Source: a virus. Taken from it: 21,004 bases of DNA. The translations under genes were made by a program, and so were the position numbers. Below the pieces are notes generated by a model. The model was not told where the DNA came from and did no database searches. It worked only from the letters and a program-made list of their open reading frames with translations. Numbering within the stretch: position 1 is the stretch's first letter; every line of letters starts with the position of its first letter. Positions 1 to 20,736 of this stretch are shown one piece after another. Where the stretch lies: IMG/VR virus record IMGVR_UViG_3300031623_000064, positions 1 to 21,004 of that record; one strand, 5' to 3'.

Positions 1-39
1 GTGGCCCACCCCCCGACTCCCCTTCTGGGGGTGGGCCAC
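1..39. repeat. GC-rich inverted repeat (13-bp perfect stem) inside coding sequence
   Basis: Bases 1-13 (gtggcccaccccc) are perfectly complementary to 27-39 (gggggtgggccac) around a 13-base loop. The repeat lies within the Pro/Gly linker of the truncated gene. Gly (GGN) and Pro (CCN) codons are complementary, so such hairpins can arise simply from the encoded repeat. It touches the window edge and may extend further left. No T-tract follows, so it does not look like a terminator. Confidence 0.6.
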
Positions 40-380
40 CACCTTCTCCCGAACAAGGACCTCCCCCGCAGGGGCAGCCGGAGGTCGGGGCAGGGTCGAG
101 CCCACAAGCGCCAATGCCACAAGGAGGAGCAGAGCAGAGCCCAATTAATGCGCAGAATGGCGGCAGTATGGTAGATCTCTTCGCCCAGGCAAAGCAGCTT
201 ACGGCACAGCTAAAAGCAATGGGCGAAGTTGACAGATATAGGGCGCTGGCGCAGTTACGCGCCAGCAACCCTGATCTATACATGTTAGTTAACCAAGCCC
301 TATCAGGCGGTGGCCGAGCAATGCGGCCACTTCCAGAGATACTTCCGCCGCGCGCCGGCCCAGAAAATCAAAGTATCTAG
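3..380 (+). CDS. C-terminal part of unidentified phage protein with Pro/Gly-rich linker (5' end outside window)
   Basis: The frame is open from the window edge to a TAG at 378-380, so this is the 3' end of a longer gene. The first roughly 35 visible residues are a Pro/Gly/Gln-rich linker (GPPP, GGGPPP and QGPPPQGQ stretches). A helical C-terminal section follows, containing LFAQAKQLTAQLKAMGEVD and then YRALAQLRASNPDLYMLVNQ. An ATG at 114 could act as a start, but the same low-complexity composition upstream argues for one continuous protein. I do not recognise the family. Portal and other head proteins of tailed phages often end in such tails, and its position before structural genes fits that, but this is only context. 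It resembles in style the Pro/Gly/Met tail of the gene at 17548-18603. Confidence 0.7.
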   Translation, partial: GPPPDSPSGGGPPPSPEQGPPPQGQPEVGAGSSPQAPMPQGGAEQSPINAQNGGSMVDLFAQAKQLTAQLKAMGEVDRYRALAQLRASNPDLYMLVNQALSGGGRAMRPLPEILPPRAGPENQSI

Positions 381-588
381 TCGGTTGTTGTTGGCCTACT
401 TTCCGGGGTCTAGGCTCTCCTCTACCGCGTCGTCGAAATCCGACAACGATGAATCACACACAAGGTAAGGGAGGCGGCTGCAATGTTGATAGTCAGGCAT
501 GATAACTCCTTTGCTAGATGCCTAGAGCGTGTTCGCTCCTTCATAGTTCTTATACCCGAAAATGCTTTTGTAATAGCCGGAGGCGTAA
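381..588 (+). other. Non-coding leader between truncated gene and RNA polymerase gene
   Basis: This is one of the few real gaps in the window. It holds an imperfect hairpin at 428-448 (CGTCGTCG / CGACAACG, one mismatch, 5-base loop) with no T-tract. It ends with a strong Shine-Dalgarno GGAGG at 579-583, five bases before the polymerase ATG. I see no convincing -35/-10 pair. A short frame (483-677) begins here behind AAGGGAGG but runs into the polymerase gene in another frame and looks spurious beyond about 36 codons. The gap is a plausible place for a promoter read by a phage-specific polymerase, whose consensus cannot be recognised from one copy. Confidence 0.45.
579..583 (+). promoter_or_regulatory. 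Ribosome-binding site of the RNA polymerase gene
   Basis: GGAGG lies five bases before the ATG at 589. An in-frame TAA at 586-588 immediately precedes the ATG, so no upstream extension is possible and this start is well fixed. Confidence 0.85.
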
Positions 589-3500: not shown

Positions 3501-6500
3501 CGCGACAGCAAATATTCGCGATGCCCTTACATACAAGAGTGACAAGGCGCAGGACGAGGTCTGGACCGCTATTCAAACCGGCTCTATATTGCCGGCCCCG
3601 AAGCCGTCTTTCGCCTACGAGAAGTTCCTCGCGTATCTGACTGCGCTTGGCGTGAATGTTGAGAAGGAGGGCAATGGCCTGATAATCAGCCCGCTCACAG
3701 ACAAGCAGATACGCGAGATCTCGAACGGTGAGATAAAAGACGGCAGCCGGGTCATCAGAGGGAAAGACCTCAAGCCAGAGAAGGGTGGGCTGTTCGACGA
3801 AGATGTTACCGGTGGTCCTGGAGGAAAGAACTGGGCACACCTGCGCTTGTCTGAAGATCTACCCAACCCAATGTTCGAGAAATCGATCACCTCCCTACTG
3901 GGTATAACGGGCAAGCAGTACGACAGCATCATCTCAGGCAGCGCAGGATTCGATGACGAGGGGGAGTACACCGAAGAAGATCCCCGCTCTTCCGGGCCCA
4001 AGGCCATCGTTGAACAGCTCAAGGAGATCGATGTAGAAGCGTCGCTTGCCGCGGCCAAAGAGAAGATACAGGTGGTGAGTAAAAGCCAGCTTGACCGGGT
4101 TAACAAGAAGATCAAGTACCTTCTTATGCTCAAGAAGAACAAGATGCGCCCAGAGGAAGCATATGTTCTGTCAAACCTGCCGGTTATTCCCCCTGTGTTC
4201 CGCCCGATATCAACTATGGAGGGTGGCGATCTAAACATTGACGGCCTCAACATGCTGTATCGGGACATTGCGATACTGAACAACAAGCTCAAAGAGGCAA
4301 AGGGCGTTCTCCCAGACGAAGCAGTGGCCGGGCTGAAGAGCGACCTATACAGCGCCATCGACGCCCTCTACGGGACCCTGCCGAACTCGACAGAGGGCGA
4401 GACGGGGCTCGACGGGCAGATTAGGCCGCCCGGAATACTGAAGATTCTGTCTGGGAGAAATTCTCCAAAACAGAGCTACTTTCACAAGCGCATGATGGAC
4501 AGGCGCCAGGATATCAGCCTCAGGTCGGTTATTGTTCCTAATATGGACCTCCATCTCGATGAGATCGGGATACCTAGAAAGGGGGCGATGCAGATCTTCC
4601 GACCGTTTGTCGTCAAGGAACTGGTCAAGATGGGATACACCCCACTACAGGCCAGAGAAGAGATCGAGAAGAAGACGACGCTAGCCAATAAAGCACTGGA
4701 CATCGCAGTGTCCCAACGGCCGGTTTTGTTCAAGCGCGACCCCGTGCTCCATAAGTTTGGCGTTATGGGCTTCATGGCGAAGCTGCACGACAAGTCCTCT
4801 ATCCATATCCACCCGCTTGTTACCGAAGGCTTCAACGCAGACTTCGACGGCGACACAATGGCGGTCTTTGTTCCCGTCTCAGCAGAGGCGGTTGACGAAG
4901 CCTATAAGATGTTCCCCTCCAAGAACCTGTATAACCCCGCCACGGGTAGGGTCATGTACCAACCGTCTCTGGAGGGGCAGTTGGGGCTGTTCCTGCTTAC
5001 CCGGTTCGGCAAGAAGACAGACGACGTATTTGAAGATGAAAAGTCTGCCATTGCTGCCGCCAAAAATGGCGATATAAGCATGACCGACCAAGTCATGGTC
5101 GACGGCGTTCGTACTACCGCAGGGAGGCTTTCCTTCCTCAATGCACTGCCAAAGTCTATTCGCACAGAAGAGTTGTTGACCGATCCGGACGCGGTCGTCG
5201 GCAAGAAAAAACTACAGCAGGTGCTTCGAACACTCGCCAAAAAGGCGCCCGGAGACTTCGCCAATTCCGTCGACAAGATAAAGTCCCTTGGGTTTGGCTA
5301 TGCGTACTCAACCGGGTTCTCGTTCAGTCTGGACGATTTCACGACGTTGCGCGGGATCCGCGATAAGCATCTGGCCAATGCAGCCCCGGTAGAGGCTCGA
5401 ATCAGAAAACAGCAGAAGATGAAAATGCTCTCCGATGAGGCGGCAGATAAAAAGGTCGTAGACCTCTACGCAAAAACTACCAAGGACATCAACGCCGACG
5501 CCATCAAGGTTCTGAAGAAGAGCGGGAATAAGCTGTTTGCCATGCATCAGGCGGGAGTCAAGCCAGGCTGGCTACAACTACAGCAGCTGGTCCTAGCCCC
5601 CATGCTGATGGAGAACGCGAAAGGGCGCATTATCCCGGTCCCGGTGACAAAGTCTTACTCTGAAGGCCTATCCACGTCTGGATACTGGGTGGCATCATCT
5701 GGCGCAAGAAAGGGCCTTATCGCGAGAGTGCTATCCACGGCTATTCCTGGCGTACTGAACAAGCAGTTGGCAAATACCCTGATGCCCTACGTTGTGACGG
5801 CGAATAATTGCGGCACGACGAAGGGCATTGCCCTGGATATCAATGATTCTGGCGTCGTTGACCGCTTCACAGCGAAGTCAGTCCGTGCCGGCAAAACGAC
5901 CATCCCCGCTAATGTGGCAATCACACCAAACCTGATATCCAAAATGAAGGCGGCCAAGATATCCAAGGTGGTTGTCCGCTCACCGCTGAAGTGCGAGTCA
6001 GCAAAGGGCCTTTGCTCCAAGTGTTACGGCGTGGCCGACAACGGGCGACCGCTAGAGATCGGCACAAATATCGGATTGATCGCCGGGTCTGCCTTAGGGG
6101 AGCGTGGGGCACAGTTGGCCATGCGCGTGTTCCATACAGGCGGCGTTGCCGGTGGCGGTGGAGAGGTAGTTGGCAGCATCGATCGTGTGTCTCAGCTATT
6201 AAAGCTCCCCGCCGTGCTGCCAAACGCCGCAGCACTGTCACCATCGACAGGCTCGGTCGAGTCTGTCAGCAAGAGCCCTGCGGGTGGCTTTGATCTCAAG
6301 ATCGGCGGACAGGAAGTATATGTTCCTGGCGGTCGAGGCCTGCTCGTCAAAAAGGGAGACAAGGTCCGACGTGGGCAAAAGGTGTCTGCTGGGGTGATTA
6401 ACCCAAGGCAGCTGCTTGAGCTAACAAACGTGGACACCGTTCAGCGCTACATGGCGGACGAACTACACAAAGTGTACGCTTCAGAGGGGATCAAACGAAG

Positions 6501-6852
6501 GAACGCAGAAGTGGTCGTAAAGGCGCTCACAAACCTCGGGCGCGTAGAGGACCCAGGTGACGTAGACGGATTTATTCGGGGAGATTATGTTTCCATATCA
6601 GCCATTAATGCCGCAAACAAAAAGCCTGGGGTGAAAAAGCCCATGGTGGTCGAGCCCGTTCTGCGCGGTATAGAGACGCTGCCGCTCGATCAGACAACCG
6701 ACTGGATAGCCCGCCTCCAGTATCGCAAACTCAAAGAGACCTATATCAGAGCTGCCAACGAGGGGTGGGAGTCTGATATCCATGGTTTACATCCGTCGCC
6801 AGGACTGGCTTACTCTGCTGAGTTTGGTAAGTCAGAGAAGGGGCCCTACTGA
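589..6852 (+). CDS. Fused beta-beta' DNA-dependent RNA polymerase, 2087 aa, single chain
   Basis: A multisubunit-type RNA polymerase in which beta (about residues 1-1030) runs straight into beta-prime (about 1035-2087). Beta landmarks are HTPEGKRSG at 387-395, PFLPSDQANRAGM from 493, GLVFEDGIVVSE, and GDKLSGRHGNKG at 774-785, followed by the NPSGVPGRINPGQILET block and a typical beta C-terminus. Beta-prime landmarks are LPVIPPVFRPI, DRRQDISLRSVIV, the metal-binding NADFDGD at 1416-1422 (three Asp), a bridge helix near 1695-1730 (SSGARKGL), zinc cysteines 1741, 1802, 1809 and 1812, and a trigger loop near 1836-1852 with M1845, R1846 and H1849. The canonical C-terminus has INPRQLLEL and DPGD at 1988-1991. 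The N-terminal beta-prime zinc ribbon is missing. All catalytic parts look intact, so it is probably active. It sits in a structural operon, with its stop overlapping the next start (TGATG). I see no alpha, omega or sigma gene. Fused subunits are known in Helicobacter and Wolbachia; crAss-like phages have a far more divergent single chain. Confidence 0.97.
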   Translation: MSILDPERAMQALEEGTVRSVDTFFPLVGKSHTLVAKSIYPDKGRDIDDIASQKRARLRGRTWSTGIYGDFDLVDNSSGKVIDSVKKMKLLSLPKMTRRFSYIVDGTEYQADHQWRLKSGAYARVKANGELETQFNLARGRGFRLDFAPGKKSFSLKYGTTNVPLLPVLQALGVKDEDVRSAWGASLYAAAAVSKKRGGMARLAKILDRKSDPKSDADAAVVIKDALAETELSPDTTKITLGQAFKSVTGGALLAAANKLLGISRGTEEPDNRDSLRFKELWGTQDHIPERLLNSKRRIGYKLRNNLDRRDSVKAIVTPDIFNVPVKAFFTSTSLSQQSSQVNPVDMVGGFLRTTIMGQGGISNEQAVSEDAKLIDSSHLGFIDPVHTPEGKRSGISSHLTLGVSKDGVNPTIRVYDVKNKKFVQMSPTGLAGKALAFPDQYDFKKGIPTPRKKTVTVVKKDGGDPENVLAVDVDYVLQSSKQLFSITANLVPFLPSDQANRAGMATRHMEQSVSLKHREAPLVQVASGNPSEHLDTWEKIVGRLNSHNSPVSGVVESVSSQRIVVSDKSGEKHTIQLYDAFPLNEKKAFISSAATVKKGDTVKKGEIVADTNFTKGGTLALGVNLNIGYLPYKGLVFEDGIVVSEGAAKKLTSEHLHKNRAYVEKNMSVGLKRFRANYPGAITDENAAKLDDDGVIEKGQMVAPGDTLITVLQKTEPSKEQLLLKGIHKSLVRPFKNRAVVWDKPYVGFVTDVVRNGREIAVHVKTEEPADVGDKLSGRHGNKGVITAVIPDEEMPKDAEGVPLEIIVNPSGVPGRINPGQILETALAKAAYKRGKAYAVDNFQRDDEKKIITVKAHYRTIKTKEGPKRVYVKEHERELGYQEVVAAIVKSEGVSETDELFDGETGKSLGKVLVGKQYILKALHQVDKKLSARAHGYGYDYDANLSPKSGGKGSAGRFGELGLYAMLAHGATANIRDALTYKSDKAQDEVWTAIQTGSILPAPKPSFAYEKFLAYLTALGVNVEKEGNGLIISPLTDKQIREISNGEIKDGSRVIRGKDLKPEKGGLFDEDVTGGPGGKNWAHLRLSEDLPNPMFEKSITSLLGITGKQYDSIISGSAGFDDEGEYTEEDPRSSGPKAIVEQLKEIDVEASLAAAKEKIQVVSKSQLDRVNKKIKYLLMLKKNKMRPEEAYVLSNLPVIPPVFRPISTMEGGDLNIDGLNMLYRDIAILNNKLKEAKGVLPDEAVAGLKSDLYSAIDALYGTLPNSTEGETGLDGQIRPPGILKILSGRNSPKQSYFHKRMMDRRQDISLRSVIVPNMDLHLDEIGIPRKGAMQIFRPFVVKELVKMGYTPLQAREEIEKKTTLANKALDIAVSQRPVLFKRDPVLHKFGVMGFMAKLHDKSSIHIHPLVTEGFNADFDGDTMAVFVPVSAEAVDEAYKMFPSKNLYNPATGRVMYQPSLEGQLGLFLLTRFGKKTDDVFEDEKSAIAAAKNGDISMTDQVMVDGVRTTAGRLSFLNALPKSIRTEELLTDPDAVVGKKKLQQVLRTLAKKAPGDFANSVDKIKSLGFGYAYSTGFSFSLDDFTTLRGIRDKHLANAAPVEARIRKQQKMKMLSDEAADKKVVDLYAKTTKDINADAIKVLKKSGNKLFAMHQAGVKPGWLQLQQLVLAPMLMENAKGRIIPVPVTKSYSEGLSTSGYWVASSGARKGLIARVLSTAIPGVLNKQLANTLMPYVVTANNCGTTKGIALDINDSGVVDRFTAKSVRAGKTTIPANVAITPNLISKMKAAKISKVVVRSPLKCESAKGLCSKCYGVADNGRPLEIGTNIGLIAGSALGERGAQLAMRVFHTGGVAGGGGEVVGSIDRVSQLLKLPAVLPNAAALSPSTGSVESVSKSPAGGFDLKIGGQEVYVPGGRGLLVKKGDKVRRGQKVSAGVINPRQLLELTNVDTVQRYMADELHKVYASEGIKRRNAEVVVKALTNLGRVEDPGDVDGFIRGDYVSISAINAANKKPGVKKPMVVEPVLRGIETLPLDQTTDWIARLQYRKLKETYIRAANEGWESDIHGLHPSPGLAYSAEFGKSEKGPY
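2374..2409 (+). repeat. 18-bp tandem duplication inside the polymerase gene
   Basis: The unit acagtcaaaaaaggcgac is followed at once by acagtcaaaaaaggcgag (17 of 18 identical). It encodes TVKKGD then TVKKGE at residues 596-607 of the fused polymerase, in the beta half. It keeps the frame. Each copy carries an A6 run. Confidence 0.85.
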
Positions 6853-8246
6853 TGCCCGACCCGTATGGCAAAAGTCCTGGCGAATGTGATGGCCCGGCTA
6901 GAGTGCATTTAGCGCGGGTAACACACGTAAATATAGCGCTATACACGCTAGACCTGGTAACGCTGTATACGCATAAGCCAATGGTCGACGTTCCGTTCGC
7001 CACGCCGTACTGCCATCCGAATCATGCGGGCGGAATGAACTTCATGCCAGAGGTGGACAGTTATTGTTACGTTTGCGAGCCTGCCGATGGGACTGTCTTT
7101 ATTATCGGGTTTGTGCTCAACCCCATGACCTCTGCGCGAACAGAGGTTGACGATCTAGCAGAAGAGGGACCGGACTGGAGTGGGTTCAGAGACCCGATGG
7201 AGGCGGGCGACGTCATGCTTGGAACGCACGACGAGAACAAGATCGTCTTGCGGAGAGGCGGGATAATTCAGATCGCTGCGACAAGCCTCGCCCAAAGACT
7301 CTACATCCCCGTTGAAAACATCGTTAGGGACTACTTTCAGCGCTATCAAGCGAGGAGTCCGCTGGGGGAGATTGACTGGGGTCATGCAATATTATCTGGT
7401 GATGACCCTAACGCAGATCACTCAAATTACATGATGGAGAATACGCTAAGCAACGAGACCGAAACACCTGTGCTAGTAAAGTACAGCATCAAGGACCTCG
7501 CCCAGGAAGACGTAAAAACTGGGAACTACTCGGTAGAGCTGCGAGTTGGCCGCCTCACGCCAGAGGTGCTAGACCCACAGGGGCGGCGTGGGGATGGCTT
7601 CCATGTATTTGCGAACAAGCAGACGAAGGTTTGGGACGGTGAAGCAGAAACCGCCACCGATGATGGTGATGGTCTAAGGGCCGAGGATGGCCTCGGGATG
7701 CCCGGAGAGGAAAAGGGTATCGTCAGCTTCACCATCTACTGTCACGATAAAGGAGACTTTGAGAACAAGGTAACCTACGCCTTTCAGATTAATCGTGAAG
7801 GCAACCTGTTCATGCACACCAAGTCACATGTGCACATGGAGATCGATGAGTCTGTTTATGCCCGCGTAAAAAAAGGCGTTAGGCTGGACTTCGGAGCAAA
7901 AGGCGGAGAGGAGGAGGCCGCAGACAGAACACGGCTGGAGCTAACCGAAGACGACAAGATAAAGGCTTTCGTGGAAGAGACCGTTATTAAGACACTGAAG
8001 AAGTTCAAGATTATTAGTGAGCAGGCCGTGATCCAGGGCGGTGATATTTTTCTAGGCGGTATGTCGGGGGCGCAAGAGGTTGTTCTTAAGGACGACTTGG
8101 GAACCTTCCTGACCACGGAATTTCAGTGCGCGACGGCATGGGGACCGAGCGGGCCGATGCTTGTGCCCATAGGAGATGTCGGTTCAAGCTGCACAAAATC
8201 AGCTAAAACAGCAGATGAGGGAGATAACGAGGGAGGGTTAGACTGA
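6852..8246 (+). CDS. Putative baseplate spike / OB-fold virion protein, 464 aa
   Basis: The start ATG overlaps the polymerase stop (TGATG), with GAGAAGG about ten bases upstream, so translation is probably coupled. Residues about 45-90 contain PFATPYCHP, FMPEVDSYCYVCEPADG and TVFIIGFV. This pattern, with 'PEV/D' before an aromatic-rich strand, is typical of the N-terminal OB domain in phage baseplate hub and spike proteins (gpV/gp45-like). Residues about 116-160 (GDVMLGTHDENKIVLRRGG, then IAQRLYIP-type sequence) continue in beta-rich style. The C-terminal part has VIQGGDIFLGG and EVVLKDDLGTFL, which recalls spike C-termini. The last residues are acidic and include KSAKTAD. The assignment is from motif memory, not a search. 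It would imply a contractile-type tail. It could be another beta-rich tail protein. Confidence 0.65.
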   Translation: MPDPYGKSPGECDGPARVHLARVTHVNIALYTLDLVTLYTHKPMVDVPFATPYCHPNHAGGMNFMPEVDSYCYVCEPADGTVFIIGFVLNPMTSARTEVDDLAEEGPDWSGFRDPMEAGDVMLGTHDENKIVLRRGGIIQIAATSLAQRLYIPVENIVRDYFQRYQARSPLGEIDWGHAILSGDDPNADHSNYMMENTLSNETETPVLVKYSIKDLAQEDVKTGNYSVELRVGRLTPEVLDPQGRRGDGFHVFANKQTKVWDGEAETATDDGDGLRAEDGLGMPGEEKGIVSFTIYCHDKGDFENKVTYAFQINREGNLFMHTKSHVHMEIDESVYARVKKGVRLDFGAKGGEEEAADRTRLELTEDDKIKAFVEETVIKTLKKFKIISEQAVIQGGDIFLGGMSGAQEVVLKDDLGTFLTTEFQCATAWGPSGPMLVPIGDVGSSCTKSAKTADEGDNEGGLD

Positions 8247-8713
8247 TGCCACTAGCTAGTGCAAAAGATGCTGTAGTCGACGCCGTTGGCGCGGTTATAC
8301 AGAAGATGGGTGATGAGGGGTTCGACCCAAAGACAGAATGGGCCAAGGTGGCTGAGGCCTTTTTCTCCCAAGGCCTCAATCCCGTCTGGATAAGCCACGA
8401 TGCTGGCAAAGCCGCTTTTTCCGCAGCGTTTAACCCAACCCTCCCTGCCCCAGGCGCTGCCATGGCGACATTTCCGCTTGCTTGGATTGCCTATGCGGCA
8501 ACAGCGTCGGCAAGCACGGCGCCACTTCCGCCGGGAGTATCCGTGACCCCTCCCATCGGACCTCCCGGGATGCCAGCGGTGACCGGAGCAGATAAGCCGC
8601 CAGACCATACATTGTACGCTACGCAACTATTTACTGAACTGATAAAGTGGGCAGTTACGGGGCTAGTAATAGCACCCGTCCCACCCGGCCCGCCAACAAC
8701 GCCGTGGAGCTAA
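8246..8713 (+). CDS. Small proline/alanine-rich protein of unknown function, 155 aa
   Basis: The ATG overlaps the upstream stop (TGATG at 8244-8248) and has GGGAGGG about nine bases before it, so the start is well supported. The N-terminal 60 residues look helical (AKDAVVDAVGAVIQKMGDEG, then EWAKVAEAFFSQG). Residues about 70-92 are Ala-rich and hydrophobic (FPLAWIAYAATAS). Residues 93-120 are a Pro/Gly loop (PLPPG, TPPIGPPGMP). Near 125-143 there is another apolar helix (YATQLFTELIKWAVTGL), then a Pro-rich end. I do not recognise the family. Its place directly after the spike-like gene suggests a baseplate or tail-associated role, which is inference only. Confidence 0.75.
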   Translation: MPLASAKDAVVDAVGAVIQKMGDEGFDPKTEWAKVAEAFFSQGLNPVWISHDAGKAAFSAAFNPTLPAPGAAMATFPLAWIAYAATASASTAPLPPGVSVTPPIGPPGMPAVTGADKPPDHTLYATQLFTELIKWAVTGLVIAPVPPGPPTTPWS

Positions 8714-8726
8714 CTAGGAGTTACCA

Positions 8727-10724
8727 ATGGAGCTAGTCAGACAAATGCGCGCCCCTGTTTTTGAGAAAACAGCGGCTCGCTTCAACTTGAGCGACAACCC
8801 AAATACATATCCCAGTGAGCTTATTGCTCATCTGTACAAGCAGCACCCTTACCTCGGTAAGTACAAGGTCAACATGACCATCGAGGGAAAGGACGAGAGC
8901 ATGGGGTACATGTATGGTGTTTTCCTTGTCTCGCATGCTGACGAAACTCCGCCAGAGATGGGCACTGCCCGGATGGGCGAGACGGACCGCTCGGCGGATG
9001 AGACGGCGGAAAAGGAGAGCCAGCTCCGTGTTCCCATTATTGTGGAGAACAAGAAGGCTTACTCGTTTGATGTCTTTATCACCGCAGACGGCAAGTTCAT
9101 GCCGCTAAACGAACAGCGCGTAGCTTCGGCCCTGTTTGACCCTAGTCCCTATGCGTTGGCGCCCAAGTCAGAGGCCAGGCCCATCGCTGGCGCGTCCGCC
9201 AACTTTGCCCCAGCCGATCCGAGCAGGGCACACGGCGGCGGAGCCGGCGCGTACTCTGACTTCTCCGGAGAGGTGAAACAGGCGTCTGTTTTGGACAAGG
9301 TCGCAGCCGTGGTCCCGTCGGGTGAGATTGATGCTTTCCTGACGAAGGTTGCTTCTGATCGATCGCTGCTGGACGCGCTCCGACTCAACAGTCATTTCGA
9401 GGATGCCCTCAAAAGACTAGCCATTATCTCCAATGACTCGCTTGCCAAGACGGCCGCTATCGAGGACCCCATCGAGGCTGGCGATCCTGTGGTCATCACC
9501 AAGACTCCCGGCGGTTACTCGGTAAAGACGGCTTCTGCGGATGGGTTTGCCCCAAAAGAGACATCTATCCCCAACGAGGTTGGCGAGCGCCTCCCCTTGG
9601 ATATTCGTCAGGGCATTGTTGACAACGGCGCGGTCCTCCTTGTTAACCAGGACAACGCCACTCTTCTGGGCGTGGAGAAGACTGCCGGATTGGAGGTCAT
9701 CGCCGAGTCAGGCGTTTACTCTGTCATGACCAAGGCGGGAAAGGCCGAGAGAGCAGCCGTGGTATGCGGTATGTCTTCGCTCGATGGCAGAGAGCTTGAT
9801 ATGTGTCTCGTGGTTGGCCCAAGCGGAGCGGCCCTTCAAGAGAAGGTTGCCGGCGTGCGTTGTGGCGACATAAATCTGGATCGTTTAGACGGCGGCCTTC
9901 CCTCTGGAGAAGGTATTTTTGTGTTCAAGACGGCGGGTACCGTTTCTGAGCCACTTGAGATCAAGCACACGATCAACACCCGTGGCGGCACTACCTACAT
10001 CTATGATCACCCACTGTCGGGCCGTGGCGAGATAAAGACCGCCAGCGTTACTCGCCCCGTTATTGTCTCCGATAACCAGTACCTGATTCCCGAGGATAGC
10101 GTTTTTGTGCCGCTTACCTTTGGTAGCGGGTACGCCTCGGACACGATCCAGATCGATAAGATCGCGTCAAGAGCGGACCTCATGATGAGGGTCAGGCTCG
10201 TTGGCGACGGCTCCGAGTTCTCCCTGTATGGTAGGCCCGTTTTTGACAAGACCGCTGGGCTGTCCAAGGCTGACGCGTTACTGGTTCTTGGCGCTCTTGG
10301 CGATACATACCCGGGCGCGATGACAAAGCTCTCCATGGCAGAGGACGGCAAGAGTGTCGAGTTTGTCGCCAGGGCCAAGCTCAACGCCCCACGCCGAATT
10401 ACTCGCGAGGCAGACGAGGTGTCCAACAAGATAGCTCAGGCGATCAGGGCTGATCTAACCAAGGAAGCGGCGGTGCTCACCAACACAGACACCGTGGACT
10501 CTGTGCTGTCGCTTAACTTCATTACGCCAGAAAACATCCAGGGATACGTTGACGCCATTCCAGATATCGAAGCCGCAGGGTCGAGGCTTGCGGAACTCCT
10601 TGTTGGTGTGCGCCTGGGTCTTTCTGATGTTCCTGAAACAGCCGTCTCCTCTGCTCTTCGTGGAATTGAGCGCGCGCTGCAAGGGCTGAAAAAGCTTCAG
10701 ATGCGGGCCGATGTTATTAACTAG
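8727..10724 (+). CDS. 665-aa structural candidate with many repeated K-x-A-[AGS] motifs
   Basis: The start ATG has AGGAG at 8716-8720, six bases upstream. The fold is not recognised. The N-terminal 130 residues include an acidic Met/Glu-rich stretch and strand-like VPIIVENKKAYSFDVFITADG. Residues 145-180 are an Ala/Gly/Pro linker. Residues 290-560 are beta-like with many Gly and Val. The last roughly 60 are helical. The notable feature is a recurring hydrophobic-x-K-[TVIE]-A-[AGS] motif: lysines at 14, 184, 191, 207, 241, 267, 318, 373, 401, 437, 478, 508 and 579, seven of them exactly KTA[AGS]. By hand estimate chance would give one or two. The copies look like linker or processing sites between small domains. 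It lies in the structural operon, so a virion role is likely, but head, tail or internal cannot be decided. Confidence 0.9.
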   Translation: MELVRQMRAPVFEKTAARFNLSDNPNTYPSELIAHLYKQHPYLGKYKVNMTIEGKDESMGYMYGVFLVSHADETPPEMGTARMGETDRSADETAEKESQLRVPIIVENKKAYSFDVFITADGKFMPLNEQRVASALFDPSPYALAPKSEARPIAGASANFAPADPSRAHGGGAGAYSDFSGEVKQASVLDKVAAVVPSGEIDAFLTKVASDRSLLDALRLNSHFEDALKRLAIISNDSLAKTAAIEDPIEAGDPVVITKTPGGYSVKTASADGFAPKETSIPNEVGERLPLDIRQGIVDNGAVLLVNQDNATLLGVEKTAGLEVIAESGVYSVMTKAGKAERAAVVCGMSSLDGRELDMCLVVGPSGAALQEKVAGVRCGDINLDRLDGGLPSGEGIFVFKTAGTVSEPLEIKHTINTRGGTTYIYDHPLSGRGEIKTASVTRPVIVSDNQYLIPEDSVFVPLTFGSGYASDTIQIDKIASRADLMMRVRLVGDGSEFSLYGRPVFDKTAGLSKADALLVLGALGDTYPGAMTKLSMAEDGKSVEFVARAKLNAPRRITREADEVSNKIAQAIRADLTKEAAVLTNTDTVDSVLSLNFITPENIQGYVDAIPDIEAAGSRLAELLVGVRLGLSDVPETAVSSALRGIERALQGLKKLQMRADVIN

Positions 10725-11878: not shown

Positions 11879-13706
11879 ATCATATCTTAGCGCGCTTGCC
11901 GCGACAGCGCCTGCCTTTACGGCCAAGGCTCTTTTTGGCGACCTGCCAAAAGGCGCACTAGAGTCTGTTGTCCAGGGCAAGCTCAGCAAAAGCCCAAACA
12001 CCGCCCGCCAGCTTCTGTCCCAGGGGCTCCGTGGAAGGGGGTTTGGGAGAGCGCTTGGTGGAGGCGTTGGCGTTTTGTCTGCGCCGATCTTTCTCAAGGG
12101 GCTGTCCCTGGTCGGATCGAAAGATCCATCTGAGCGGAGAAAGGGTCTCGCAATGATCGGCTCTACCAGCGCGGTCTATTCATCGCAGAAGGGCTTCCTT
12201 GAGGGGTTCAGGTCGTCGAAAGCGCTCGGTAAGCCGTCCCCATTAGCTGTTTCTCGTGGACTGACTCTTGGCGCGACTCGGGCTGCCTACAAAACACCAC
12301 AAGCCCTTCTTCTTGGGTTAGGCATAGCCGCCGGCAGGAAGAAGAGCAAAAAATCAAAAGATGAAACAAGCAAGTACCTGTTACCAGCCCTGGCCGGTTC
12401 TGCTCTTGGCGCCGGGAGCCGCGGAATTGAGTCGGCAGTGCAGTCGTCAATCGATCTCCGCGGTACGGGCATGGCCCGAGCAGCCAAGCTCAGAAAGATT
12501 CTACAGCGCGCGTTACCCGCAGCGGGCGGTGGCGCAGCCGGGGGTCTTTTTGGTGGGCTTGTTTTGGCCGGGGTAGTGGAAGGAGCAACACGCGCTATGA
12601 ATAAAAAGGCATCAAACGAAAAGACCGCCGCGCTCCTTGATCCGCTCACCCTCGGCACCGCCGCGACAAAGGGCGTTCTGGATGTCTTAGGCATGCATGC
12701 GTTGACTAAGGGCGGGCTTGGCTACGGAAAGGTCGGCCAATTCTTTGCAAGGACACCGGGCCTAAGAAAGATCCCGCTGATGTACCAGAAGGCCCAGTCT
12801 AGACAACTGGCGATTGGTATCCGTGAAGGCATCGCCGGAAGAGCGACACAGGGGTATCGGTCAACTGCTGCGCTTTCGATTACCTTCCCAGAGCTACAGG
12901 TCCAAAGGCAGCTAGGGCTGAAGCTTGGCAACTATCTCAGAGGACTCCCGCCAGAATGGAGAGAGACCGCTCTGAAAACAGTAGGCGGCGGGATCGCGAA
13001 GCGCCCGCACATGATGACTAGCCGACGCGGTAGCCCAACAGGACTCCATGTATTCCCAGAGGGCATTAAAATGGCTCTTGGGGGCAAGCCACTCTACGAG
13101 GGTACAGGGCCGCTGACAAAAGCGTGGAAGAAGGTCATGCTCGGCGGCCGTGGGGCCGTCGATCAGACCGTTGCCGGGAAAATAAAGAAGCTCCACGGGC
13201 TCCCCATGGCAGGAGCAATGGATAAGCCTGTCCTAAAGGGCGCCGTCGAGGACCTCTCCTCAATGGCCGGATGGGCTGGAGCGGGCTTGGCTACGGGTGG
13301 AATGCCTGGCGCATTTATGCTGGCTCATGGCGGATGGAGTGGCCTGAAGGGCCTGGTCGCTAAGCACCAGGCTGTCGAAGCGGCGGCCAAGGGGATGACA
13401 GCCAAGGGCATACGCAGGGCCCTTTTCCCAAGCGCACGGGTACAGACGGGCGGGAATATGCTTTTGGACTATGCGGTGTCCCCCGCTGCCCGGGACATGT
13501 CCAGAATGTCCGAAGGGCTCGTTGCTGGCATCGGTGGTGAGCTGGCTGCAGGCGCCAAGCGACGCGGAGCCGAGGCGCTTAAGGGTGCAATGCTGCCGAA
13601 ACCGATTGGCCTGAGGGACCTTTCCATGCCCGCTGCTGGGGCTATCGGGCTTGGTTCGCTTGGGGTGTTGCAGGATAAGAGACTCAGACGAATGGGGGGC
13701 GCATAA
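11859..13706 (+). CDS. Large Gly/Ala-rich basic protein with membrane-like segments, 615 aa
   Basis: Begins inside the end of the previous gene (20-base overlap). It is strikingly rich in Gly, Ala, Leu, Lys and Arg. Apolar glycine-zipper-like stretches occur at about 147-160, 218-240 (ALPAAGGGAAGGLFGGLVLA) and 467-492. They are separated by very basic patches such as GRKKSKKSKDE near 160-169. Just after the second apolar stretch lies NKKASNEKTAALL (248-260), with two copies of the K-x-A-[AGS] motif shared with neighbouring proteins. There is no signal peptide and no enzyme motif. This composition is usual for internal virion or ejected proteins that insert into membranes, or for tape-measure-like proteins. 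That role is inferred from composition and neighbours only. Confidence 0.85.
   Translation: MAKKADKSYLSALAATAPAFTAKALFGDLPKGALESVVQGKLSKSPNTARQLLSQGLRGRGFGRALGGGVGVLSAPIFLKGLSLVGSKDPSERRKGLAMIGSTSAVYSSQKGFLEGFRSSKALGKPSPLAVSRGLTLGATRAAYKTPQALLLGLGIAAGRKKSKKSKDETSKYLLPALAGSALGAGSRGIESAVQSSIDLRGTGMARAAKLRKILQRALPAAGGGAAGGLFGGLVLAGVVEGATRAMNKKASNEKTAALLDPLTLGTAATKGVLDVLGMHALTKGGLGYGKVGQFFARTPGLRKIPLMYQKAQSRQLAIGIREGIAGRATQGYRSTAALSITFPELQVQRQLGLKLGNYLRGLPPEWRETALKTVGGGIAKRPHMMTSRRGSPTGLHVFPEGIKMALGGKPLYEGTGPLTKAWKKVMLGGRGAVDQTVAGKIKKLHGLPMAGAMDKPVLKGAVEDLSSMAGWAGAGLATGGMPGAFMLAHGGWSGLKGLVAKHQAVEAAAKGMTAKGIRRALFPSARVQTGGNMLLDYAVSPAARDMSRMSEGLVAGIGGELAAGAKRRGAEALKGAMLPKPIGLRDLSMPAAGAIGLGSLGVLQDKRLRRMGGA
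13694..13699 (+). promoter_or_regulatory. Ribosome-binding site fixing the GTG start of the SNF2 gene
   Basis: GGGGGG lies eight bases before GTG 13708. The frame is open further upstream to a TTG at 13651, but that would put 56 bases inside the preceding gene, with no comparable site. The GTG start is therefore preferred. Confidence 0.65.
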
Positions 13707-13707
13707 C

Positions 13708-15692: not shown

Positions 15693-15908
15693 CCTTATTT
15701 CGATAATCCCCTTCTTTCGACTGACCTTCACCCTTGCGCTAGGGATATAATACTTGATAGTAGCCTTGACAGTGCTCGCCAGAGATTTCTCTATTGGCGG
15801 CCAGAGCCGAAGAGTGTACATATCCTCTTCTGGGTTACTGTAGCTTACAAGGTCATTGCCGAGCGCTCTGGAGAGCGTGGCGATAACTGTCTTCAAAGAA
15901 CTTTCCAT
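15687..15908 (-). CDS. Probable reverse-strand small gene, 73 aa, unknown function
   Basis: Reading leftwards from ATG 15908 to TAA 15689-15687, this is the only credible reverse-strand gene. Most of it (15693-15855) faces no forward gene, so it is not merely a shadow. The product has a natural composition: MESSLKTVIATLSRALGN, then SNPEEDMYTLRLWPPIEKSL, then TVKATIKYYIPSARVKVSRK and an IIEIRL end. Codons such as AAG, ATC and GTC match those of its neighbours. The fold would be helix-helix-strand-strand, similar in size to small assembly proteins, but I do not recognise it. No good Shine-Dalgarno is visible. Its ATG shares the palindrome CATG (15906-15909) with one possible terminase start. 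The competing view is a non-coding promoter region for terminase. Confidence 0.5.
   Translation of the reverse strand: MESSLKTVIATLSRALGNDLVSYSNPEEDMYTLRLWPPIEKSLASTVKATIKYYIPSARVKVSRKKGIIEIRL
15746..15751 (+). promoter_or_regulatory. Possible -10 box upstream of terminase (TATAAT)
   Basis: A perfect TATAAT occurs at 15746-15751 with only a weak CTGACC at 15721-15726 (19-base spacing). A perfect TTGACA follows at 15766-15771, with a weak TCTATT 18 bases further on. Neither is a complete promoter, and both lie within the probable reverse-strand gene, where they may simply be codons. Confidence 0.2.
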
Positions 15909-17538
15909 GCTGGGCTTCGATAAAACCAAGGAAGAGCGGGACGCAGATCTTGACTTGCTCAAGATGTTCCCGAGCGAGTTTGTCTCAGAGTTCGTCAACA
16001 TGCCGAACCGCGGGACACTTGAGAAGTTCTCGTTTGTCGGCAGAGAGTATCTTATCCCAATCTACGACACTCCGCACCAACGAGTGCTTCTGAAGTGTGG
16101 CCGACAGGTTGAGAAGAGCACGACCCTTGGCAACATTACCCTTACGTACGCAATGCTACGCAGGCATTTTCGGTCTCTCTTCGTTAGCCCCACACAGCAG
16201 CAGACAGAGACATTCTCCCGCGACAGAATTTCCACCCCTATAGAGCTATCCGACAAGCTCAATATATTCTTGCAGGGCGCGGCGACCAAGGACAACGTCC
16301 TGTACAAGAAGTTCATTACGGGCTCTGATATGACGTTCCGGTATGCCTTTCTTCATGCAGACCGTGTTCGTGGCATCTCCGCAGATATGCTTCTGCTTGA
16401 CGAGATCCAAGACGTGCTCACCGAGGTCATCCCGGTTATCGAGGAGGCACTGGCGCACTCGCCGTTCAAGATCTTAAGGTACTCTGGCACGCCCAAGAGC
16501 ACTGACAACACAATCGACTACTACTGGAACCAGTTCAGCACTCAGAACGAGTGGGCGATTCCCTGTGATGGCTGCAATAAGTGGAACATCGTTGGGCTAG
16601 ACAACATCGGGGATACGGGCCTCATCTGCTCTAAGTGTGGGCGCGCTATAAACCCGCAGCACCCGAGAGCGGCCTGGGTCTCGATGAGATCTCCATCGTG
16701 GATAAGGAATCCCCCCATAAGCAAACCGTTCGAGGGGTACAGGATCCCACAGGTCATCGCGCCGTGGATTGAGTGGTCGGATATCCTGGACAAGAAGAAG
16801 CGGTACTCCCAAGCACAGTTCTATAACGAGGTTCTTGGGCTGGGCTATGACTCAGCTTCAAAGCCACTTACACGTGATACGCTGATGGCGTGTTGCGAAG
16901 GTGGCCCCAGCATGAGCAAGGCCCACGCCCTGGCCATCAGAAACAGCCCTGTTTTTATGGGCATAGACTGGGGTACCGGGGAGAACACCTATACGGTCTT
17001 GTGTATCGGCACGTACATCAAAGACAAGTTCACCTACCTGTACTTCAAGCGTTATGAGGGCGAAGAGGCCTCGCCAGAGCCGATGATGGCTGAGATCAGA
17101 AAACTCATAGACAAGTACAGCATCGCCATTGTGGGAGTTGACTACGGCGGAGGCTTCGACAGAAATGACCAGCTAATACGGTCATTTGGGATTACCCGCA
17201 TCGCCCGATATCAATACGTGAACACAAAACGATTATACTTTGATAAGCACCTGCACAGGTTTATGGTTAACAGGACGGAAGCGCTGATGTCTATCGTCAA
17301 CGCGCTCAACAGAAAAGATGAGATCAGGCTCCCGCGGTGGGAAGATTTTGAGACACCTTTTGCCAGTGACCTTCTCGCTATCTACAGCGAATACAATGAG
17401 GCCAGAAGAACAACTGTCATCGACAGGACGCCAGGAACTACAGATGACACGCTACACGCGATGACATACTGTTTTTTAGCATCTATGATAAGACACCCCC
17501 GGCCTGATATCATGATGCCCACAGGTCGGGAAAAATAG
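15907..17538 (+). CDS. terL: Phage terminase large subunit (ATPase and nuclease), 543 aa
   Basis: The packaging motor that drives DNA into the prohead and cuts it. With ATG 15907 as residue 1, the Walker A region is CGRQVEKSTT from 64 (K70, S71, T72). Walker B with the catalytic acid is MLLLDEIQD, with D165 and E166. A zinc-ribbon insertion has C220, C223, C241 and C244, as in GpA-type terminases. The RNase H-like nuclease follows, with D354 in FMGIDWGTG, D412 in VGVDYGGG, and TTDDTLHA with D513 and D514. All key residues are present, so it should be active. GTG 15877 (553 aa) is an alternative start, with GGAG only three bases away; ATG 15907 lacks a good site but abuts the reverse-strand ATG. 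No obvious small terminase is next to it. Confidence 0.95.
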   Translation: MLGFDKTKEERDADLDLLKMFPSEFVSEFVNMPNRGTLEKFSFVGREYLIPIYDTPHQRVLLKCGRQVEKSTTLGNITLTYAMLRRHFRSLFVSPTQQQTETFSRDRISTPIELSDKLNIFLQGAATKDNVLYKKFITGSDMTFRYAFLHADRVRGISADMLLLDEIQDVLTEVIPVIEEALAHSPFKILRYSGTPKSTDNTIDYYWNQFSTQNEWAIPCDGCNKWNIVGLDNIGDTGLICSKCGRAINPQHPRAAWVSMRSPSWIRNPPISKPFEGYRIPQVIAPWIEWSDILDKKKRYSQAQFYNEVLGLGYDSASKPLTRDTLMACCEGGPSMSKAHALAIRNSPVFMGIDWGTGENTYTVLCIGTYIKDKFTYLYFKRYEGEEASPEPMMAEIRKLIDKYSIAIVGVDYGGGFDRNDQLIRSFGITRIARYQYVNTKRLYFDKHLHRFMVNRTEALMSIVNALNRKDEIRLPRWEDFETPFASDLLAIYSEYNEARRTTVIDRTPGTTDDTLHAMTYCFLASMIRHPRPDIMMPTGREK

Positions 17539-17547
17539 AGGTGCCAA

Positions 17548-18603
17548 ATGAGCGAGTTTGAACAATATCTTACCTCTGGCGGTAAATCAGAGGTTTCTCC
17601 TGGGTCCCTCAGACACATGGGGAAAAAAGCGGCTCGTCTCTATCTTGCCGAAAAGGTTCCGCTTAATGACGCGATCTCTTCGATGGCAAAAGAGGCGTCA
17701 TTGAGCCTGGAGCAAATCAAGCGGGTGGCAGAGTACGCCAATAACGACACGTTCTCCGTACTGTTCAAGCAGGGCGCCTCGAAGAACATCACGTTCCCGA
17801 TGGCAGACTCTTCGGCAATTGCTCAGCTGGTTGAAGAAGAAGGCAAGGACAAGATCTCTACTGTCTTCATGATCCCGAAAGAGCGATACATCCCTGGCCA
17901 AGAGCTTGCAGATCTGGCTGTAGCCTTTGGTTACAGCGGGATCGAGAAGACTGCGTCCGTTGACAAGACAGCGGCCAAGCAAGAGTTCTTAAGGCTACAC
18001 CACACCGCAAAGCACCTGCAGTCTGACCTAGAGGTGCTGGGGACGGTCTTCAAAGACAAGCTCTACAATCTGGGGACACTCTGCAAGGAGGCCGCGCGCG
18101 AGGGAAATTATGCCCACGTAATTGGCGCAGCCATTGAGGCTGGCGGGCCCTCCCCCGGCCTTGTCGGGGTTATCTCGGACGAGCTTGGTGAGTTGATCGA
18201 GTTTGGGCAAATGGAGAAGCTCGCCATGCACGGCATGGCTATGCAGGCCAATCCCATTTCTGGCCTGACGGCGGAACTGGAGGGGGTTTCCAGCAAGCTC
18301 ATGTCCACGCAAGAGGCGGTGGGTAGAACCCAGATGGCGATGAGTGAGCTGCTTGGTATTCTTCGTGGGCCAGAGGGGCCGCAGGGGGCGTCTGATCTGT
18401 TCTCGGGCCAGGGCGGAATGCAGATGCCTGTCGGGCCTCCGCAGGGCGGAGGGCCGATGCCCGCCCCAATGCCAGGAGGTCCACCGATGTCCGGTATGGG
18501 CGGCGGAGGGCCGATGTCCGGTATGGGCGGCGGACAGGCAATGCCCGCCCCAATGCCAGGAGGTCCACCGATGTCCGGTATGGGCGGCGGAGGGATGGGA
18601 TGA
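17548..18603 (+). CDS. 351-aa structural-region protein with Pro/Gly/Met repeat tail
   Basis: The ATG is preceded by AGAGG six bases upstream and lies ten bases after terminase. Residues about 40-95 (SSMAKEASLSLEQIKRVAEY, then FSVLFKQG and ITFPMADSSAI) form a short module that I associate with structural-region proteins of other large tailed phages, though I cannot verify it. Residues 135-270 are largely helical. From about 273 the protein becomes a Pro/Gly/Met-rich tail built on a 54-bp DNA repeat. The K-x-A-[AGS] motif occurs at K26, K48, K134, K140 and K180 (IEKTASVDKTAA holds two). No catalytic motif or membrane span is seen. It is probably a virion or head-assembly protein. Its last bases overlap the next start (ATGA). 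Confidence 0.9.
   Translation: MSEFEQYLTSGGKSEVSPGSLRHMGKKAARLYLAEKVPLNDAISSMAKEASLSLEQIKRVAEYANNDTFSVLFKQGASKNITFPMADSSAIAQLVEEEGKDKISTVFMIPKERYIPGQELADLAVAFGYSGIEKTASVDKTAAKQEFLRLHHTAKHLQSDLEVLGTVFKDKLYNLGTLCKEAAREGNYAHVIGAAIEAGGPSPGLVGVISDELGELIEFGQMEKLAMHGMAMQANPISGLTAELEGVSSKLMSTQEAVGRTQMAMSELLGILRGPEGPQGASDLFSGQGGMQMPVGPPQGGGPMPAPMPGGPPMSGMGGGGPMSGMGGGQAMPAPMPGGPPMSGMGGGGMG
18457..18594 (+). repeat. Direct repeats encoding the Pro/Gly/Met tail
   Basis: A 54-base unit at 18457-18510 recurs identically at 18541-18594. The core ccgatgtccggtatgggcgg (24 bases with its continuation) occurs three times, starting at 18484, 18511 and 18568. The unit encodes MPAPMPGGPPMSGMGGGG. Perfect identity suggests recent duplication, and the array could vary in length between relatives. 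Confidence 0.9.
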
Positions 18604-19259
18604 GCCCAGAGGCGCCATTCCTAAAAACGGCAGCTAATCCACCAGACCTCCTTGATAAGTTCAGAGAGCGGTTTGTGGTTGGGCTGAAACGTGACCCAGT
18701 AACCAAAGAGGTTATTGGCCGTAACGCGCTACTTGGCTCACAGTCCGCCTTGGCGGAAGCCCTTCGGCGCGAGTGGGCGTTCCCATCCCGTGTTGCCGGA
18801 GCGCCCTTTAGATGGGCGGGTGGCGGCCTCAAAAACATCATGCTTGGCAGGCCAGAGGGCTCGCTGATGTCTCCTGTTCGGGGAAAGAGGCTTCGCCCAG
18901 TTCCTGGAGGGGCGGGCAAGGGCCTTATCGAGATCGGAGCAGATGAATACGGCGCCCTCAAAGAGCGTGGCGGCGCAGAGCTAAAGCGTGGGAAGATTGG
19001 CGGAAGATCAGTCTTCTACAAGAGGAAATACATCCCTGGCGGGCTGGTCGGCGGCGCAATGAAGCACCCGGTCCTGGCAGGCGGCGGCGCTTTACTTGCC
19101 TACTACTTGATGAAGAATCCGTCGATGCGCGCACCCGCAGGCCAAATGGCCACCGGGCTTGTTCCACAGCTTCCACATAGCCAACTATCTGATGATGTTG
19201 CCCGGATGTGGGGACAGCAACGCAACCAGTCGAATCCACTCCAACGAGACGCTTGGTAA
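18600..19259 (+). CDS. Basic Gly-rich protein with one membrane-like span, 219 aa
   Basis: Starts with an ATGA overlap and has GGAGG about seven bases upstream. The N-terminus SPEAPFLKTAANPPDLL carries the F-x-K-T-A-A motif (K9) seen in neighbours. Residues 20-145 are basic and Gly-rich (RFVVGLKRDPVTKEVIGRNA, then GGRSVFYKRKYIPGG). Residues about 147-171 (GGLVGGAMKHPVLAGGGALL and AYYLM) could span a membrane. Near the C-terminus DDVARMWGQQRNQ contains a [MI]-W-[GA]-x-Q-R motif that recurs in the next two genes. I do not recognise a family. Composition and position suggest a minor virion or internal protein. Confidence 0.85.
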   Translation: MSPEAPFLKTAANPPDLLDKFRERFVVGLKRDPVTKEVIGRNALLGSQSALAEALRREWAFPSRVAGAPFRWAGGGLKNIMLGRPEGSLMSPVRGKRLRPVPGGAGKGLIEIGADEYGALKERGGAELKRGKIGGRSVFYKRKYIPGGLVGGAMKHPVLAGGGALLAYYLMKNPSMRAPAGQMATGLVPQLPHSQLSDDVARMWGQQRNQSNPLQRDAW

Positions 19260-19264
19260 AATCA

Positions 19265-20149
19265 ATGAATAAAGAAGACATTAAGCATATGCTCTCTGAG
19301 AAACTTGCCGGCAACCGGACAGGCCGCAAGAAAACCCGAGCACTCAAGATACAGCAGACGGCGGCTGATCCGGCGCTTAATCAGATGTGGGCCAAGCAGC
19401 GCAGAAGAGCAAAGCGGAAGTTTAAGCAGCAGATGAAGGGCATGGGGCAGGTCCAGCAGGCGGGCGGCACACCGCCGCCTCCACCGAAGTTCAGACAGCC
19501 CTCAGCTAAGCCCGCAGCCGCGAACACGGCTGCAAAAGAGTCGCTTAAGGATATTATGAAGTCGTGGAGTAAGGGGGTTAGCAAGTCTGCCCTTAACCCG
19601 GAAGCTATCGGCAAGGGGCTCGCAAAGGGCCTTGGCGTAGCCGGCATTGCTGCTCTTGGGGCGAAGGGCCTTGACCTGCCTGGAGCAATAGCCAAGAAGT
19701 TCGCGCCCAAGAAGACGCTGACTCAGAAGCTGCTTGCTGCAGGTAGCCCAGGACGGAAAGCGCTCATGTTTGGCGCTGGTGCCGCGGGGATCATGGCCGG
19801 TATCAAGGGGCTGGAAGCAGGGTCAGACGCGATCATCGATCCGATCAAGAAGAAGCGCTCGTATAACAAGATGATGGACGACAATTCTTTCCTCAAAAAA
19901 GAGAAGGGCAGAGACGTCAAGCGCATCTTCAGTACGCTCTACCGGTTCAACCCGAAGATGGCGGGAGATCCGCTTGTGGCCGGTTCGTTCCTCAGAAGAG
20001 CACTGCAGTTCAAGGAAGAGGGAATCCAACCGGTGGACATCAAGACCTTGACCGAGGCCGCAAAGAACGTCGCGCAGACCAAAAATAAGGGCTCGCTGCT
20101 CAGAGATGCCTTTATCGGCTCAGGGGCCGATTTATCTAGTTTTGCATAG
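19265..20149 (+). CDS. Basic Ala/Gly-rich protein with apolar helices, 294 aa
   Basis: ATG 19265 (MNKEDIKHMLSEKLAGN) is preferred over an upstream GTG at 19208, which would overlap the preceding gene by 52 bases; no strong Shine-Dalgarno is seen. Residues 20-60 are very basic and contain LNQMWAKQRRRAKRKFKQQ, with the W-x-x-Q-R motif. A Pro-rich linker (GGTPPPPPKF) follows. Apolar Gly/Ala helices lie at about 113-140 and 167-190 (ALMFGAGAAGIMAGIKGL). The C-terminal domain (SYNKMMDDNSFLKKEKGRD, then IFSTLYRFNPKMAGDPLVAG and an amphipathic helix) looks globular. K13 in SEKLAG fits the K-x-A-[AGS] pattern. It resembles the 615-residue protein at 11859-13706 in style. A possible internal or ejected virion protein; no family recognised. 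Confidence 0.85.
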   Translation: MNKEDIKHMLSEKLAGNRTGRKKTRALKIQQTAADPALNQMWAKQRRRAKRKFKQQMKGMGQVQQAGGTPPPPPKFRQPSAKPAAANTAAKESLKDIMKSWSKGVSKSALNPEAIGKGLAKGLGVAGIAALGAKGLDLPGAIAKKFAPKKTLTQKLLAAGSPGRKALMFGAGAAGIMAGIKGLEAGSDAIIDPIKKKRSYNKMMDDNSFLKKEKGRDVKRIFSTLYRFNPKMAGDPLVAGSFLRRALQFKEEGIQPVDIKTLTEAAKNVAQTKNKGSLLRDAFIGSGADLSSFA

Positions 20150-20179: not shown

Positions 20180-20335
20180 ATGGCGAAGAGACACATATGG
20201 GGCAACCAGCGCCCTAGTGACACCAAGAAGAAGAAAACGAGACAAGGGTCTAGTAAGTTTTCAAAAACTGGTAATCCCGGGCCATCTGGCGGGAACAAGG
20301 GCTACCGCAAACCAAACCGAGGACAGGGCAAATGA
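20180..20335 (+). CDS. Very small basic protein, 51 aa
   Basis: The frame runs from ATG 20180 to TGA 20333-20335, and the stop overlaps the next ATG (AAATGA), as at other junctions here. The product begins MAKRHIWGNQRPSDTKKKKT and ends GNKGYRKPNRGQGK. It is almost entirely Lys, Arg, Gly, Ser and Asn. Small basic phage proteins ending in a 'YRGQGK'-like tail are, as I recall, common in tailed phages, without known function. IWGNQR matches the W-x-x-Q-R motif of the two preceding genes. It fills a space otherwise without a gene. TGAAG about nine bases upstream is a weak ribosome-binding site. RNA or DNA binding is plausible from charge alone. Confidence 0.7.
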   Translation: MAKRHIWGNQRPSDTKKKKTRQGSSKFSKTGNPGPSGGNKGYRKPNRGQGK

Positions 20336-20736
20336 ACTCATTAGAGAAGTACGCAGCTAAGCGCAGGTTAATTGGGCACTTGATCGAGAAGCTGGCAAAC
20401 CAGCCACCTACCCGGTACATGAACCTTCCAGGGGGGACTGTGACTGCCCGCAAGCCGACAATCCCGGAGGGCACTGTTCAGCTTGATACCAGTCCCCAGC
20501 CCGGCTACAAGCGGAACCCAGCGGTAGGCTACAAGGGCGTTTTGCCCACTGGGACTGCCCGGACCACTGCGGCCCCGGCCGTCGAAGGCGCCCCCGTCCT
20601 TTCTCAGGCTGATGTGCGTCCCGGATATCGCCCAGACCTGAGCTATCTCAAAGACCGCGAGAGCCAGACGGCCAAAACGAACAGGCTCTTCCAGCTTCTC
20701 AGCCGTCAGCAACCGCCCACAACTGCAACGAGGTAG
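20332..20736 (+). CDS. Small protein with N-terminal KYAAK module and Pro-rich body, 134 aa
   Basis: The ATG overlaps the previous stop; GAGGA lies about eight bases upstream. The N-terminus MNSLEKYAAKRRLIGHLIEK is a basic amphipathic helix shared with the next two genes. Residues 25-95 form a Pro/Gly/Thr-rich, probably unstructured body with loosely repeated GTV/GTA and PGYK/VGYK units. The C-terminus (SYLKDRESQTAKTNRLFQLL) is helical. No catalytic residues are apparent. The first member of a tandem family; likely a minor structural or decoration-type protein, inferred from context only. Confidence 0.85.
   Translation: MNSLEKYAAKRRLIGHLIEKLANQPPTRYMNLPGGTVTARKPTIPEGTVQLDTSPQPGYKRNPAVGYKGVLPTGTARTTAAPAVEGAPVLSQADVRPGYRPDLSYLKDRESQTAKTNRLFQLLSRQQPPTTATR

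Follow-up and report, generated by a model that had tools for sequence, protein, structure and literature searches.

Here, a short lysine-containing motif, [LMIVF]-x-K-x-A-[SAG], is put forward as the recognition and cleavage motif of a tailed phage's own head maturation protease, with gp665, in which K-x-A-[AGS] occurs 13 times, as a multi-cut internal head protein; on the comparative sequence evidence this reading is given a probability of roughly 80%. Four observations favour it. The motif is concentrated among the protease, scaffold and capsid genes, with no such concentration in genes for replication or the tail; it flanks the protease catalytic domain in divergent phages, Bacillus phage G among them; scaffold-like proteins have the most sites for their length, as would be expected of a core protein that is processed into fragments; and its sites shift within the variable linkers of gp665 homologues. 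A first-pass annotation had raised the idea of a maturation protease signal, which the comparative data support, and cleavage itself we infer.

The window, i.e. the whole 21,004-nucleotide stretch analysed (IMG/VR record IMGVR_UViG_3300031623_000064), is a 21-kb virus record from a tailed phage and encodes an RNA polymerase, several unknown proteins, a helicase, a terminase and small head-region genes. Its relevant features are:

589-6852: fused beta/beta' RNA polymerase, a single 2087-aa polypeptide
8727..10724, + strand: gp665, 665 aa, 13 K-x-A-[AGS] sites; predicted head-internal prohead protease substrate
13651-15480: SNF2-type helicase ORF
15856..17538, + strand: terminase large subunit (TerL), phrog_675, E=1e-70; the head module begins here; 0 motif sites
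17548..18603, + strand: gp351, 351 aa, directly after TerL; 5 sites (K26, K48, K134, K140, K180)
18624..18635, + strand: N-terminal site FLKTAA in ORF 18600-19259, whose homologues begin MNRFEKQAAK or MTPLEKRAAK
19301..19312, + strand: site SEKLAG in ORF 19208-20149, near the likely true start at about 19265, MNKEDIKHMLSEKLAG
20332..20361, + strand: leader MNSLEKYAAK of the 134-aa ORF 20332-20736, common to unrelated proteins of relatives

The beta and beta' regions of the RNA polymerase share one ORF in the window and the homologous regions occupy separate ORFs in Salmonella phage Arash and Vibrio phage D69. The helicase ORF as listed has a TTG start within the preceding gene; its homologues begin MSLGDYL, which compares with VSLGDFLVK in the window, so the true start is probably a GTG near 13708.

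Every one of the 13 K-x-A-[AGS] sites that the first-pass annotation had counted in gp665 was recovered at the residue it gave, and its estimate that composition would predict one or two agrees with residue shuffles of the protein, which give 1.10 expected (p<=0.0005 with 2000 shuffles, p<=0.0002 with 5000); such shuffles assume independent residues, and the count for the rest of the D69 genome, given below, is the better control. Composition bias as the source of the motif was rejected on these two controls. Tandem repetition within gp665 was also rejected, as the spacing is irregular and nothing but the motif recurs. The sites, all on the + strand, with their occurrence in the 18 aligned family members, are:

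8766..8777: K14, FEKTAA, 17/18 homologues; possible end of a 16-residue N-terminal leader; N-terminus of low pLDDT
9276..9287: K184, VKQAS, K-x-A-[AGS] in 9/18 homologues and K-x-[SG]-S in several others
9297..9308: K191, DKVAA, 3/18 homologues
9345..9356: K207, TKVAS, 9/18 homologues
9447..9458: K241, AKTAA, in a low-confidence linker where sites move between homologues
9525..9536: K267, VKTAS, 9/18 homologues; predicted strand
9678..9689: K318, EKTAG, 5/18 homologues
9843..9854: K373, EKVAG, 17/18 homologues
9927..9938: K401, FKTAG, 10/18 homologues
10035..10046: K437, IKTAS, 9/18 homologues; predicted strand
10158..10169: K478, DKIAS, 14/18 homologues; low-confidence loop
10248..10259: K508, DKTAG, 5/18 homologues
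10461..10472: K579, TKEAA, 17/18 homologues; directly precedes the most conserved C-terminal ~84 residues

No match to gp665 was found in Pfam, PHROGs or the named-phage collection, and Foldseek with its AlphaFold model, a weak one (pLDDT 60, pTM 0.33), returned one match only, to an uncharacterised phage protein. This weak model places two sites (K267, K437) in strands and three (K191, K207, K579) in helices; given the two sites in strands, the protease reading does not require cutting at every site. The location of gp665 inside the head we infer from the motif only. Within the window, gp351 is the only other protein that is comparably enriched (5 sites vs 0.64 expected), and its homologues reach to Arash gp220, annotated 'structural protein', with 7 sites. 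The window controls gave 0 sites vs 4.0 expected in the RNA polymerase (2087 aa), 1 vs 1.2 in the helicase and 0 vs 0.3 in TerL.

Homologues of gp665 were found in IMG/VR contigs, where 17 relatives with 36-58% identity carry 5-12 sites apiece. The 18 aligned proteins of the family hold 167 sites in total vs 19.1 expected, although they share ancestry and are not independent tests, which are provided instead by different protein families and divergent phages. Across the alignment the motif Lys is more conserved than other Lys (0.74 vs 0.47), as is the motif Ala relative to other Ala (0.69 vs 0.45), and the residues neighbouring them are more variable. In three variable linkers (27-40% column identity) about one homologue in two carries a site, and its position varies; judged from the alignment, such turnover is the behaviour of a short functional motif and not of an element fixed by structure. 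In some homologues K-x-S-S or K-x-G-S takes the place of the motif, which suggests that small residues are tolerated.

Beyond gp665, the motif was followed through the entire sequences of two near-complete relatives, G001 (181 kb) and G002 (173 kb), with gene calls made as mechanical longest-ORF picks. D69 and Arash have an RNA polymerase, protease and capsid protein in common with the window group at ~27-42% identity; the Vibrio phages D148 and D181 likewise have homologues of all three. Neither D69 nor Arash has a homologue of gp665, unlike the window phage, but both carry the same motif in the head module. In G001, G002, D69 and Arash alike, the motif is concentrated in head-assembly genes, the motif-rich ones being those that encode the head maturation protease, the scaffold-like proteins and the post-terminase protein. 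Past the equivalent of the window end, the gene order in G001 and G002 is protease, a 202-224-aa acidic protein, a highly charged scaffold-like protein of 272-283 aa, a 115-116-aa protein, a 194-aa protein and the capsid protein, which matches the PHROG 'major head protein' (E=1e-4); nearly all of these genes carry the motif. Just four G001 proteins exceed a strict per-gene threshold: gp665, a 336-aa protein, the post-terminase protein and the scaffold-like protein. The scaffold-like proteins are densest in sites, the protein in the scaffold position of D69 having 10 in 269 aa vs 0.9 expected.

The first-pass annotation had proposed a proteome-wide shuffle test, and the outcome in D69 favoured a true enrichment in the head genes: with sites counted where a hydrophobic residue stands at -2, there are 24 vs 2.3 expected in the head module (terminase side through capsid gene) and 21 vs 20.9 in the rest of the genome. 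The module from TerL to the major capsid protein (MCP) has 13 vs 2.1 expected in G001 and 13 vs 2.5 in G002. Outside it the counts are also raised (49 vs 28.7 in G001, 53 vs 26.7 in G002). Some of this excess comes from gp665, the 336-aa protein and the leader proteins, which the module definition leaves out, and some of it is nonspecific, since the reversed motif also gives high counts there (44 in G001, 49 in G002). A gapped-triplet search of the D69, Arash and G001 head modules, with no motif assumed, placed K.AS, L.K.A and EK.A at the top and did not return x-x-E patterns of the L/I-x-E or A-x-E type.

Two proteins outside the head modules are also rich in sites. The 336-aa protein (G001 70207-71217, G002 104047-105057), which belongs to no known family and is encoded upstream of a portal-like gene and the RNA polymerase, has 6 sites vs 0.4-0.6 expected and is likely, from its sequence, to be another head-internal substrate. 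A 283-aa protein of D69 (170872-171723; L063 20872-21723) has 6 sites vs 0.27 expected, which makes it a candidate packaged protein.

Residue preferences were taken from 171 K-x-A sites in the head proteins of four phages. Position -2 favours L (3.4x), M (4.5x) and I (2.0x), position -1 favours E (3.8x) and V (2.2x), +1 favours T, Q, E and V, and +3 favours S (4.4x). The sequence context given by the first-pass annotation is upheld as regards a hydrophobic residue at -2 and E at -1, but D (1.2x) and T (1.5x) are weak at -1. These preferences yield a better consensus, [LMIVF]-[E/x]-K-x-A-[S/A/G].

A prohead-type protease, the search for which the first-pass annotation had also recommended, was found in the relatives just past the equivalent of the window end; the window itself ends upstream of the gene, which in relatives adjoins the scaffold and capsid genes. 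The G001 protein (95753-97438) matches the PHROG 'head maturation protease' phrog_18299 (S78-like) at E=5e-9, a family also matched by phage G (E=3e-19) and Mycobacterium phage I3 (E=1e-19); phage G gp19 and the N-terminal domain of I3 gp103 (phrog_18299 / phrog_2774) have a homologous protease domain. All seven aligned proteases (from five group members, phage G and I3) have the invariant residues His104 and Ser160, which fits a serine protease. The G001 predicted model is weak (pLDDT 49) and gave no PDB match at E<0.001 by Foldseek.

All of the aligned proteases except that of I3, which lacks the flanking sites, carry the motif just before the catalytic domain (LVKVAS, LVKEAS, FEKTAA, LEKSAA, LTKQAA and, in phage G, LVKTAA). 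Several also carry it just after the domain (AKVAS, QKVAS and, in phage G, EKVAS), and in the G001 model both flanks are low-confidence segments. In phage G gp19 there are four K-x-A-[AGS] sites in 300 aa, outside the catalytic core, vs 0.49 expected (P=0.0009). The head genes of phage G and I3 show no general enrichment of the motif. The phage G portal gp14 (L064 10200-12146) has two K-x-A-[AGS] sites near its N-terminus, K18 and K55, and these could mark a portal propeptide.

The site in the capsid protein, GKEKIAALGG (VKEAG in Arash), is conserved, as is the N-terminal segment around it, and may be structural. The phage G major capsid protein lacks the site and in its solved structure, 6wkk, the chain begins at residue 1, for which reason the capsid-protein site is set aside as weak evidence.

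The motif also forms N-terminal leaders. MN[AS]LEKYAAK or close variants occur on proteins of nine body families that are unrelated by blastp, including short proteins encoded in the window (20332-20736), in G002 (20-3017, 8054-8518 and 171637-172386) and in G001 (104642-105151 and 179136-179540). One short N-terminus on otherwise unrelated proteins closely recalls the T4 capsid-targeting sequence, and by this analogy the leaders would target proteins to the head and be removed.

The first-pass annotation invoked as precedent the T4 and phiKZ motifs, which end in E; T4, phiKZ and SPN3US proteases all have glutamate specificity (PMC9026906, PMC10052503). T4 gp21 cuts after L/I-x-E and cleaves core proteins into several fragments, and T4 internal proteins are directed into the head by a 10-residue N-terminal capsid-targeting sequence that gp21 then removes (PMC9026906), while SPN3US gp245 cuts after A-x-E (PMC10052503). 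The system described here has several features in common with T4 gp21 and its scaffold gp22: the motif is short and degenerate, its key charged residue is preceded at -2 by a hydrophobic one, scaffold and core proteins contain many sites, internal proteins bear short leaders and the protease itself has sites; the T4 and SPN3US precedents lead one to expect self-cleavage segments in a prohead protease (PMC9026906, PMC10052503). It differs from T4 in that Lys, with x-A-[SAG] after it, stands where T4 has Glu, and in that the protease, as judged by its PHROG match, falls in a different PHROG group from gp21. SPN3US gp245 and phiKZ gp175 are likewise from large phages, with several cut sites in the propeptide of a single protein (gp53) (PMC10052503, PMC9026906), and the preference of SPN3US for Ser after the cut parallels the Ser enrichment in the K-x-A motif; their glutamate specificity sets them apart, and their proteases were absent from the matches here. 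A literature search returned nothing on a Lys-x-Ala phage protease motif, and nothing on Salmonella phage Arash.

Other explanations of the motif can be weighed against these data. It could be a tag for docking or packaging, which recruits proteins uncut into the prohead by binding to some part of the head, e.g. the inner surface of the capsid, the core or a protease exosite. The presence of MN[AS]LEKYAAK on unrelated proteins does resemble an address tag, the multivalent repeats of the scaffold and gp665 would suit avidity, and the capsid protein retains its site, yet the phage G capsid protein, without one, is apparently uncut. Nevertheless, we regard a tag as unlikely, since cleavage better accounts for sites that flank the protease catalytic domain, in phage G too, and for the peak in density among scaffold-like proteins, and the small residues preferred at +2/+3 are typical of a scissile bond.

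Less probable still is that the motif arises incidentally from local structure, such as a helix end or strand-loop element that recurs because head proteins share folds. Several sites in gp351 homologues and scaffolds do sit at likely helix-loop transitions (e.g. AKEAGLSLEQI) and parts of the D69 scaffold resemble degenerate helical repeats, but gp665 sites occur in coil, strand and helix alike at irregular spacing, conservation is confined to the Lys, Ala and small residues amid variable neighbours, sites shift in linkers, and D69 shows no enrichment in the rest of its genome. Almost no weight is given to lysine-rich DNA-binding repeats that would hold the packaged DNA. Each motif supplies one Lys and the proteins are predicted to be in the head, but the 3.8x Glu enrichment at -1 disfavours this option, which the first-pass annotation had also offered, and the scaffold-like and 202-aa proteins are strongly acidic and the motif is present in the protease itself.

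Under the favoured protease reading, gp665 would be packed in the prohead as an internal or core protein and cut by the prohead protease at several sites, losing a leader of ~16 residues at the N-terminus and being cut internally in its linkers and at the near edge of the conserved helical domain that forms its C-terminus (residues ~582-665). The protease would remove the segments flanking its own catalytic domain on both sides, shred the scaffold-like proteins and trim the leaders off small internal proteins. The scissile bond may lie between A and [SAG], a possibility raised by the Ser enrichment at that position, or after the Lys, which would place a hydrophobic residue at P3, as in the T4 L/I-x-E motif.

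The element that would be new is a lysine-containing maturation motif, as the well-studied cases end in glutamate. The broader proposal, which is judged an even bet, is of a lysine-directed maturation code, partly shared with phage G, in which one motif serves as both cargo leader and cut mark, so that unrelated proteins including gp665 are loaded and processed by one protease. If true, this would supply a sequence rule that predicts head-internal proteins, their cut positions and their mature forms in uncharacterised large phages, and many orphan virion proteins would be annotated at once. It would also add to the glutamate rule of T4, phiKZ and SPN3US a specificity of a different kind, and foreign proteins could be loaded into phage heads by means of the leader.
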